Source: an uncultured Pelagibacteraceae bacterium
GTDB lineage: Bacteria; Pseudomonadota; Alphaproteobacteria; Pelagibacterales; Pelagibacteraceae
Reading direction: 5' to 3'
NCBI GenBank assembly: GCA_902552985.1
Contig: CACDII010000003.1
Location: 62,001-126,000, forward strand
Length of the DNA stretch: 64,000 nucleotides
The notes under the pieces are model-generated. The model saw only the letters and a list, made by a program, of their open reading frames with translations. It was not told where the DNA came from and searched no databases. The translations under genes were made by a program, and so were the position numbers. Below are positions 48,448 through 49,873 of this stretch, piece by piece. Each line of letters opens with the position of its first letter. The stretch's first letter is position 1.

Positions 48448-48524
48448 GGCGGGGTAGCTCAGTTGGTTAGAGCGCGGGACTCATAAGCCCGAGGTCAGTG
48501 GTTCGATCCCACTTCCCGCTACCA
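48448..48524 (+). tRNA. tRNA-Met (CAT anticodon), elongator-like
   Basis: Cloverleaf by eye: acceptor GGCGGGG/TCCCGCT, D-arm GCTC/GAGC, anticodon loop CTCATAA, T-arm AGTGG/CCACT, encoded CCA. Confidence 0.95.
48475..48524 (+). repeat. 50-bp direct repeat copy 1 (3' part of tRNA-Met); putative att site
   Basis: CGGGACTCATAAGCCCGAGGTCAGTGGTTCGATCCCACTTCCCGCTACCA, identical to 49824-49873. Confidence 0.97.
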
Positions 48525-48545
48525 TTCTAGAAGGTTTCCAAATTA

Positions 48546-48568
48546 TTGCTCCACTGGTGCTCCAATGA
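48546..48568 (+). repeat. 23-bp imperfect direct repeat TTGCTCCA-CTGG-TGCTCCAATGA
   Basis: 19/23 identical to 49737-49759; each copy holds two TGCTCCA words. Confidence 0.8.
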
Positions 48569-48580
48569 TAAAGTACTTTT

Positions 48581-48862
48581 ATGCGTAAGCTAATTATATT
48601 TTTGGTCACGGGAATGTTGTTAAGCAGCAATGCTCTTGCATTAACTAATGATCAAAAAGAAATGTACGAAGGTTGTGTTGAAGATGCAACACATCTAGAA
48701 CAGAGTAGGGCTAAACAATACTGCAAGTGTATAACTATAATGATCACGGATAAATATTCTATTGATGAAATATTAAGAATTTCACAATCTAGTACAGAAG
48801 AATATCTTGAAAAATTTGGCTTCGCAGTTAATTATTGCAACGTAAATGCAAACGCACCTTAG
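48581..48862 (+). CDS. Small putative secreted 4-Cys protein (93 aa), island cargo
   Basis: Sec-type signal peptide MRKLIIFLVTGMLLSSNALA; mature part Cys at GCVED, YCKC, NYCN. Confidence 0.7.
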   Translation: MRKLIIFLVTGMLLSSNALALTNDQKEMYEGCVEDATHLEQSRAKQYCKCITIMITDKYSIDEILRISQSSTEEYLEKFGFAVNYCNVNANAP

Positions 48863-49414
48863 ATGAAGAAAAAAACTAAATCAATGAGTCCAAAGCAAAT
48901 ACTAGCATACATTGCTTTTATAATTGCTATTGTATGGACTTTAAAATTTGTATTTGAACTTTCAAGTTCGGGTGTAAAACAAATTACAAATTCAGGATCG
49001 AAACAAGTTACAAGTTCATCTGAAACAAAAAATGAAACCGAAACTCCAGCTAATAAAATAACTATAACTTGTAGTTTTATGAATGGACACGCAATTATAC
49101 AAGGCGATATGATAAATGTTCCTAAGGGTTTCAAGGGAACACATGATATTGCAATTGTTTTAGATTTAACAAATAAGGAAATTTATAAATTTGATGAGTT
49201 ATCAGGATTTTTATATGCAAAAAATACTATTTTTTCTGATACTAGAATATATTGGCGCTGGATTATGGATGATAATTCTAGCACTTATACTTATACTGAT
49301 TATTATTTAAGCAGGACAACTGGCGAGTTAAAAGTATTATTCGAATCTAAAATATCTAAATATGGATCGACAGCCTACACATATAACTGCAACAAAGCAT
49401 CTCAAAAATTTTAA
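48863..49414 (+). CDS. Putative membrane-anchored protein (183 aa), island cargo
   Basis: N-terminal TM segment, Ser/Thr-rich linker, C-terminal globular region; start abuts preceding stop (TAGATG). Confidence 0.65.
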   Translation: MKKKTKSMSPKQILAYIAFIIAIVWTLKFVFELSSSGVKQITNSGSKQVTSSSETKNETETPANKITITCSFMNGHAIIQGDMINVPKGFKGTHDIAIVLDLTNKEIYKFDELSGFLYAKNTIFSDTRIYWRWIMDDNSSTYTYTDYYLSRTTGELKVLFESKISKYGSTAYTYNCNKASQKF

Positions 49415-49452
49415 TTGTTGATACAACAATCATTAAATTGTAAAATATTTTT

Positions 49453-49662
49453 ATGAATAAAATATATAAAGTTGTAGCTGCATTTGCATTTATAGCTACA
49501 GCAATGATTTATCCAGCGAAACTAGCTAACGCAGAAACTTGCTTCTTTCAATATGAACAAATTTCTGGTTTGAACAAAATATGTCATTACAGCTGCACAA
49601 CAGGCAATTATGCAATAACAATAGCCTCTTATCAACTTTGTCCTATACATATTCAAAAATAA
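49453..49662 (+). CDS. Putative small secreted 4-Cys peptide (69 aa), island cargo
   Basis: Signal peptide MNKIYKVVAAFAFIATAMIYPAKLANA; short mature part ETCFFQ...KICHYSCTT...QLCPIH. Confidence 0.55.
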   Translation: MNKIYKVVAAFAFIATAMIYPAKLANAETCFFQYEQISGLNKICHYSCTTGNYAITIASYQLCPIHIQK

Positions 49663-49736
49663 TCTGTAGCAGTTTAAAATTATTTTAAAAAAATCCACGG
49701 GACTACTTCAAAGCATTCCCGCAGAATCTTTAATTC

Positions 49737-49759
49737 TTGCTCCATATATGCTCCAATGA
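49737..49759 (+). repeat. 23-bp imperfect direct repeat TTGCTCCA-TATA-TGCTCCAATGA
   Basis: Second copy of 48546-48568. Confidence 0.8.
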
Positions 49760-49823
49760 CTTAGCAAAAATTAAAAATATTAGATTGAAAAGTTAAGCAA
49801 TTACTTATAAAAAATAATTGGTA

Positions 49824-49873
49824 CGGGACTCATAAGCCCGAGGTCAGTGGTTCGATCCCACTTCCCGCTACCA
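49824..49873 (+). repeat. 50-bp direct repeat copy 2 (tRNA-Met 3' fragment); putative distal att site
   Basis: Perfect copy of 48475-48524 with no 5' tRNA half upstream. Confidence 0.97.

Follow-up and report, generated by a model that had tools for sequence, protein, structure and literature searches.

The window, the whole 64-kb stretch of SAR11 (Pelagibacter) DNA analysed here, holds a small island at a tRNA-Met gene, with 1.3 kb of DNA and three small ORFs (93, 183 and 69 aa) lying between two exact copies of a 50-bp tRNA-Met 3' repeat (48475-48524 and 49824-49873). No third copy of the 50-mer occurs in the 64-kb window, even at three mismatches, and shuffled sequences give an expectation of 0, which rules out a chance repeat. 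ARAGORN makes a single call, tRNA-Met(CAT) at 48448-48524. Both the exact duplication and the lack of a tRNA 5' half in the right copy had been claimed in the original prediction and are confirmed by these analyses. A direct repeat of a tRNA 3' part with an intact tRNA at one end is the arrangement seen in tRNA-targeted integrative elements. The features of the locus, with ORFs defined by length and start codon only, are as follows.

48448..48524, + strand: intact tRNA-Met(CAT), regenerated at the left junction (attL); ARAGORN.
48475..48524, + strand: left copy of the 50-bp att repeat, from the anticodon stem to CCA; repeat search and shuffles.
48480..48486, + strand: anticodon loop CTCATAA, likely crossover region, as judged from lineage II islands.
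48525..48616, + strand: conserved lineage I left end (TTCTAGAAGG..., arm pair, first-ORF start with shared signal peptide); by eye against G538, G367 and G505.
48547..48564, + strand: left arm-type pair TGCTCCA-CTGG-TGCTCCA; pattern search, with the same layout in phage attP and before integrase genes.
48581..48862, + strand: cargo ORF 1, 93 aa, probably secreted, its signal-peptide start within the conserved left end; ORF list and end comparison.
48863..49414, + strand: cargo ORF 2, 183 aa; ORF list.
49453..49662, + strand: cargo ORF 3, 69 aa, signal peptide by eye; ORF list.
49695..49823, + strand: conserved lineage I right end (possible hairpin, arm pair, AT-rich spacer to att); by eye.
49738..49755, + strand: right arm-type pair TGCTCCA-TATA-TGCTCCA, in the same orientation as the left pair; pattern search.
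49824..49873, + strand: right copy of the 50-bp att repeat (attR); repeat search and shuffles.

Family searches returned no convincing match for the cargo: ORF 1 has no Pfam match and ORF 3 matches phrog_4641 weakly (E 0.0036). ORF 2 was modeled as one helix and a beta-rich domain at low confidence (mean pLDDT 50), too poor for a functional assignment, and no convincing homologue of this 183-aa protein was found in 200 other genomes of the genus. The ten matches listed between the island and a phage collection comprise only tRNA genes or unannotated DNA. Pfam and PHROGs searches detected no integrase or recombinase among the three ORFs, in agreement with the earlier reading of the 1.35-kb segment; the island contains neither an excisionase nor a phage gene and does not encode the site-specific integrase expected of a tRNA-targeted integrative element. 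The draft genome that contains the window is 86% complete; a search of it found a single tyrosine recombinase, of the Xer type, and no phage-type integrase.

Just inside each end of the island lies the motif TGCTCCA-N4-TGCTCCA, which the original prediction did not mention. These are the only two such sites in the 64-kb window (0 expected, which also rules out chance), and both have the same orientation relative to the tRNA. Arm-type sites of attP are short repeats bound by the N-terminal domain of the integrase, and an N4-spaced heptamer pair has the layout of tyrosine-integrase arm sites. The predicted circular form of the island comprises, in order, an arm pair, 68 nt, the tRNA-Met core, 22 nt and an arm pair, corresponding to a complete attP.

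Most SAR11 phage-type integrases examined begin shortly 3' of an N4-spaced pair, several of them at tRNA-Met, and SAR11 integrases at several tRNAs come after such a pair; the heptamer varies by element (GGTCGCA, TGTCACA, TGATCACA, GGGCACA). In L062 and L117, two unrelated phage contigs rich in GC, TTGCTCCA pairs separated by 230 bp lie next to a 324-aa integrase. Scanning viral contigs for the tRNA-Met core returned four phage contigs: three (L045, L047 and L048) carry a 424-436-aa integrase beside the core and ACGTACC-type N4-spaced heptamers near it, and the fourth, the short stretch L046, has a heptamer pair without an integrase. Matches to the pair pattern in viral contigs are, in many cases, due to chance or derived from other bacteria. 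No pelagiphage with TGCTCCA arms at this tRNA-Met was found in the viral contigs, where 80 loci were not each checked for arms. Three independent lines lead us to interpret the heptamer pairs as probable integrase arm sites, to which an integrase would bind.

In L045, L046 and L048, the phage attP region holds a complete tRNA-Met-like sequence and not the 3' half alone, reminiscent of tRNA-dependent lysogeny. The viral contig L360 has a tRNA-Met-like attP candidate whose core is flanked on either side by CTCGGCA-N4-CTCGGCA pairs.

We rejected the role of a mere cargo promoter as the main function of the heptamer pair because its orientation tracks the tRNA and not the gene: the cargo genes of G020 and G086 run the opposite way, and the pair still has the orientation of the tRNA. 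A promoter may overlap the pair.

The pair pattern was found in 27 of 399 genomes of the genus, mostly drafts and a sample of it, against one reversed-control match. Counted by hand, 23 of these 27 matches are heptamer-pair islands at this tRNA-Met (at least 23 of the 399 genomes), and the remaining matches seem to reflect chance, another site or a contig that lacks the tRNA. At the family level, 11 of 297 genomes matched, with 0 reversed-control matches, and GTDB representatives scanned for tRNA-Met followed by the pair yielded 15 stretches, all from Pelagibacteraceae. Because the same architecture and the same ends recur in independent assemblies, an assembly error, raised as a concern in the original prediction, is unlikely. 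That prediction also read the absence of point decay in the second copy as a sign of recent acquisition or selection; this argument is weak, as second copies are intact in nearly all other islands too.

The heptamer-pair islands form several lineages, assigned with their loci by reading script output, that have conserved ends and differing cargo. Lineage I, with TTCTAGAAGG-type ends and TGCTCCACTGGTGCTCCA, comprises the islands of the window, G538, G367 and G505 and, by the same ends, those of L464, L465 and L467. Its left end is conserved from att through the start codon to the signal peptide MRKLI(I/M)FLVTG(M/I)L, and the ORF start MRKLI is also present in L464, L465 and L467; the first ORF differs in G505, in one of the two L467 islands and in the second L465 island. 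About 130 bp are conserved at the right end, and the cargo between the ends differs among the window, G538, G367 and G505. Trypsin-like proteases occur in five lineage I islands. The right end of this lineage also contains CAAAGCATTCCCGC, which is the reverse complement of GCGGGAATGCTTTG in the left end of G538 and may form a hairpin or terminator; the corresponding window positions are 49709-49722 and 48607-48617, with GCGGGAATGCTTTG partly kept.

Lineage II, of the TGCTCCAATAG type with the right end GGTTCATGGCGATAGACTCATAAGCC, carries genes for LysE, tautomerase, HxlR-flavodoxin-pirin, dienelactone hydrolase, arylsulfotransferase and ECF sigma factors. Its identity to the tRNA begins at GACTCATAAG, which places the crossover at or after the anticodon loop, so that CTCATAA is the likely crossover region. 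Lineage III, of the TGGTCCA type, has a truncated tRNA-Met at the left and an intact one at the right, and its cargo includes HNH, T5orf172 and a 1090-aa ResIII helicase similar to restriction enzymes. A 55-56-aa ORF (MKIIIQSIKNYFKSKKDRGLEPVFFEKIGD...) without a PHROGs match lies near the right end of lineage III islands (L034, L181, L184, L321, L322, L323, L325). Behind one lineage III island, in L188 (G182:C1, reversed, 9113 onward), a likely prophage has a 425-aa integrase directly after tRNA-Met. The heptamer of the G020 island is TGACACA.

In the backbone that has an MKDIYI... gene after tRNA-Met, the locus is empty in G022 and filled in six others, with inserts from three lineages measuring 1803 (G367), 879 (G505), 622 (G669), 2009 (L456), 2009 (L470) and 1848 bp (G640); L456 and L470 have identical sets of cargo genes. 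An unoccupied allele therefore exists for the locus and for sister islands, not for the window's own flanks. In G599, tRNA-Met is directly followed by a glycosyltransferase gene 73% identical to the one downstream of the window island. The same cargo sets (LysE, HxlR-flavodoxin-pirin, ECF-sigma and DUF2061-like) are present in different hosts. These empty and alternative-cargo alleles argue against a content fixed among relatives, and they support the earlier proposal of site-specific integration at the tRNA 3' part with regeneration of the tRNA.

Left flanks of the filled loci are 73-96% identical to those of empty G022 and right flanks 86-92%, and SAR11 recombines a lot. Such identities between carriers and the empty site are enough for homologous exchange and would suit a scenario in which the islands, inserted once by an integrase, now spread only through recombination of their flanks at a hypervariable locus. 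However, islands also occur in tandem in L465 (three left ends), L467 and L309/L468. The junctions between them are tRNA-Met att copies; in integrons and CALINs, attC sites lie between the cassettes. These arrays, together with three insert lineages at exactly the same tRNA position, require repeated site-specific insertion. We consider spread by flank recombination alone improbable, and homologous recombination of flanking DNA could be moving some islands.

The tandem islands with att copies at their junctions also bear on the alternative that a larger prophage or satellite has decayed to the window island, lost its mobility and retained genes that happen to be useful to the host. They fit such a remnant poorly, as do the conservation of both ends around different cargo and the intact arms at both ends, and we regard this explanation as very unlikely, even with (i) no integrase in the island and no phage-type integrase found in the genome and (ii) an integrase fragment adjoining the sister island of G538. 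Among the origins first put forward, a stripped remnant is thus disfavored and an element mobilised in trans, carrying cargo, fits best. As read from sequence, the boundaries are exact, the arms are intact, the ends are conserved around different cargo, and empty and tandem alleles exist.

A candidate helper lies at the same tRNA-Met in L473 (Ca. Pelagibacter MAG AI_MB285), in an element with ~6.4 kb between att copies, where a TGCTCCA pair is followed 13 nt on by a 327-aa integrase gene. The left end of this element matches the G086 island at 63/68 nt. At the right end, alignments of 126-139 nt with lineage II right ends have 117-122 identical positions (84-97%, gaps uncounted), with a lower value for G661 (96/115); the right pair has a variant sequence (TGCGTC). 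L473 has its ends, along with the tRNA and the left heptamer pair, in common with the sister lineages and not with the window lineage, and the genus genomes searched yielded no element that combines an integrase with lineage I ends. Sequence comparison thus shows that a related element with an integrase gene occupies this tRNA and has the TGCTCCA heptamer.

The closest relatives of the L473 integrase in the 399 genomes are 43-44% identical and sit at the same tRNA-Met in L487, with an AAA primase/helicase-like protein and a terminase small subunit, and in L488, with a primase; both elements look like phage satellites. Relatives in the phage collection show ~33% identity among the matches listed. 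Other integrases at tRNA-Met occur in G123, G510 and G572. The same sample contains 23 pair-bearing islands versus 2 integrases of L473's closer group.

We conclude, with a probability of roughly 0.77, that positions 48475-49873 of the window are a mobile cassette in integrated form, which has no integrase gene of its own and would be moved in trans by integrases of satellites or phages. Closure of the cassette at the 50-bp repeats would give a circle with the full attP. A tyrosine integrase encoded by a different element at this tRNA-Met, such as a phage satellite, would act in trans by binding the heptamer arms and the tRNA core of the cassette. The circle would integrate at the anticodon loop with restoration of the tRNA, excision would be the reverse, and cargo would be exchangeable between the conserved ends. 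DNA would also pass between cells, and transfer by phage capsid is plausible given that two relatives of the L473 integrase sit with a primase and one of them also with a terminase small subunit.

A stronger claim, compatible with this explanation, is that the cassette bears a packaging signal and is a true phage satellite, packaged in minimal form. The primase and terminase genes beside related integrases at the same tRNA are consistent with packaging, as is the conservation of right ends beyond the arm sites, but the island has no phage gene and the right-end sequences of lineages I and II gave 0 matches in viral contigs, and we hold packaging of the cassette itself to be rather doubtful.

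Comparison with known systems places the integrase-less cassette within a kind already known. As in Islander-type tRNA-targeted islands (PMC4383910), a tRNA 3' part is duplicated and an intact tRNA is regenerated at one end; unlike the islands described there, the window island has no integrase, spans only ~1.3 kb and carries only cargo genes. It resembles CALIN arrays and MITEs, 'hitcher' elements that retain recombination sites, have no recombinase and depend on a helper (PMC11389934), whereas its sites are a tRNA att and arm pairs instead of attC or transposon inverted repeats, and its cargo lies between two att copies. With no recombinase and with recombination sites that are complete if the arms function as predicted, the island is hitcher- or CIME-like, and we view it as a new variant of hitcher elements.

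PICMI phage satellites (PMC10803314) are marine, occur in Vibrionaceae and have int, alpA, primase and fis as core genes. Integrase and primase are also present in L487 and L488, whereas the window island has none of the four genes and, more broadly, no integrase with replication or packaging genes as in PICMI or PICI satellites. A marine setting is shared with PICMIs, VEIMEs and tycheposons, all described as phage satellites; tycheposons combine a tRNA border with an encoded tyrosine recombinase, which the window island lacks. In additive flexible islands of Methylophilaceae, tRNA-Lys end repeats likewise bound variable cargo of at least 330 bp, and the portion of that report available does not describe arm sites, conserved ends, integrase-bearing counterparts or empty sites (PMC10872708). 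Repeated arm motifs are also found in attP of ICEMlSymR7A, which, in contrast to the window island, is conjugative and has its own integrase; five IntS arm sites are needed there, and attP and IntS suffice for integration (PMC11963761), making trans mobilisation of the cassette plausible. The damaged left and intact right tRNA-Met of lineage III recall tRNA-dependent lysogeny (PMC10865867), whereas regeneration at the window island follows the usual 3' mode. We found no description of such cassettes in SAR11 in the literature searched, which mostly excluded subscription papers.

Mini-islands with heptamer pairs are not confined to tRNA-Met. In a tRNA-Leu mini-island of L514 (4802-5883), 42 bp of the 5' tRNA part are exactly repeated and ACTAGAGCC-type pairs lie close to either end, and another in L513 (2080-4017) has CTGTTAC pairs. 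Separately, a header of ~30-40 nt, ATGAAAAAACTTTTAGGGATCGTGGTTCTGGGTTTGTTG (signal peptide MKKLLGIVVLGLL), is conserved at the DNA level before unrelated genes in 45 of 151 genus genomes, with 0 control matches, an apparent conservation inflated by selection through the search pattern. Its sites include L512 (G369:C26), L513, L514, L515, L516, L517 and L518 and the islands of G538, L464, L467 and G020; ten copies stand in a row beside tRNA-Thr in L512, and none was found in the window's genome. At 18 of the 59 distinct sites the header does not stand at the start of a long reading frame, and it therefore resembles a cassette junction at the DNA level. We raise, tentatively, the possibility of integron-like exchange in SAR11 without integrons, in which tRNAs would be docking sites, integrase-less cassettes would outnumber integrase carriers, satellite integrases would act in trans, and a second, DNA-level junction (the signal-peptide header, in arrays of up to ten genes) would shuffle cargo.

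SAR11 bacteria, with their streamlined genomes, are among the most abundant cells on Earth, and little is known of the ways in which they acquire genes. Integrase-less cassettes that bring different genes to one tRNA are a likely route of gene exchange in SAR11, and cassettes this small give integrase-based search tools for islands or prophages few features to recognise. The cargo sets at the locus include secreted proteases, quinone-stress enzymes, a restriction-like helicase and an ECF sigma factor. With empty, single and tandem states and candidate integrases at one locus, gene exchange in SAR11 becomes testable from reads. Our data also suggest layered parasitism, in which a phage is exploited by a satellite and a cassette borrows the satellite's integrase.
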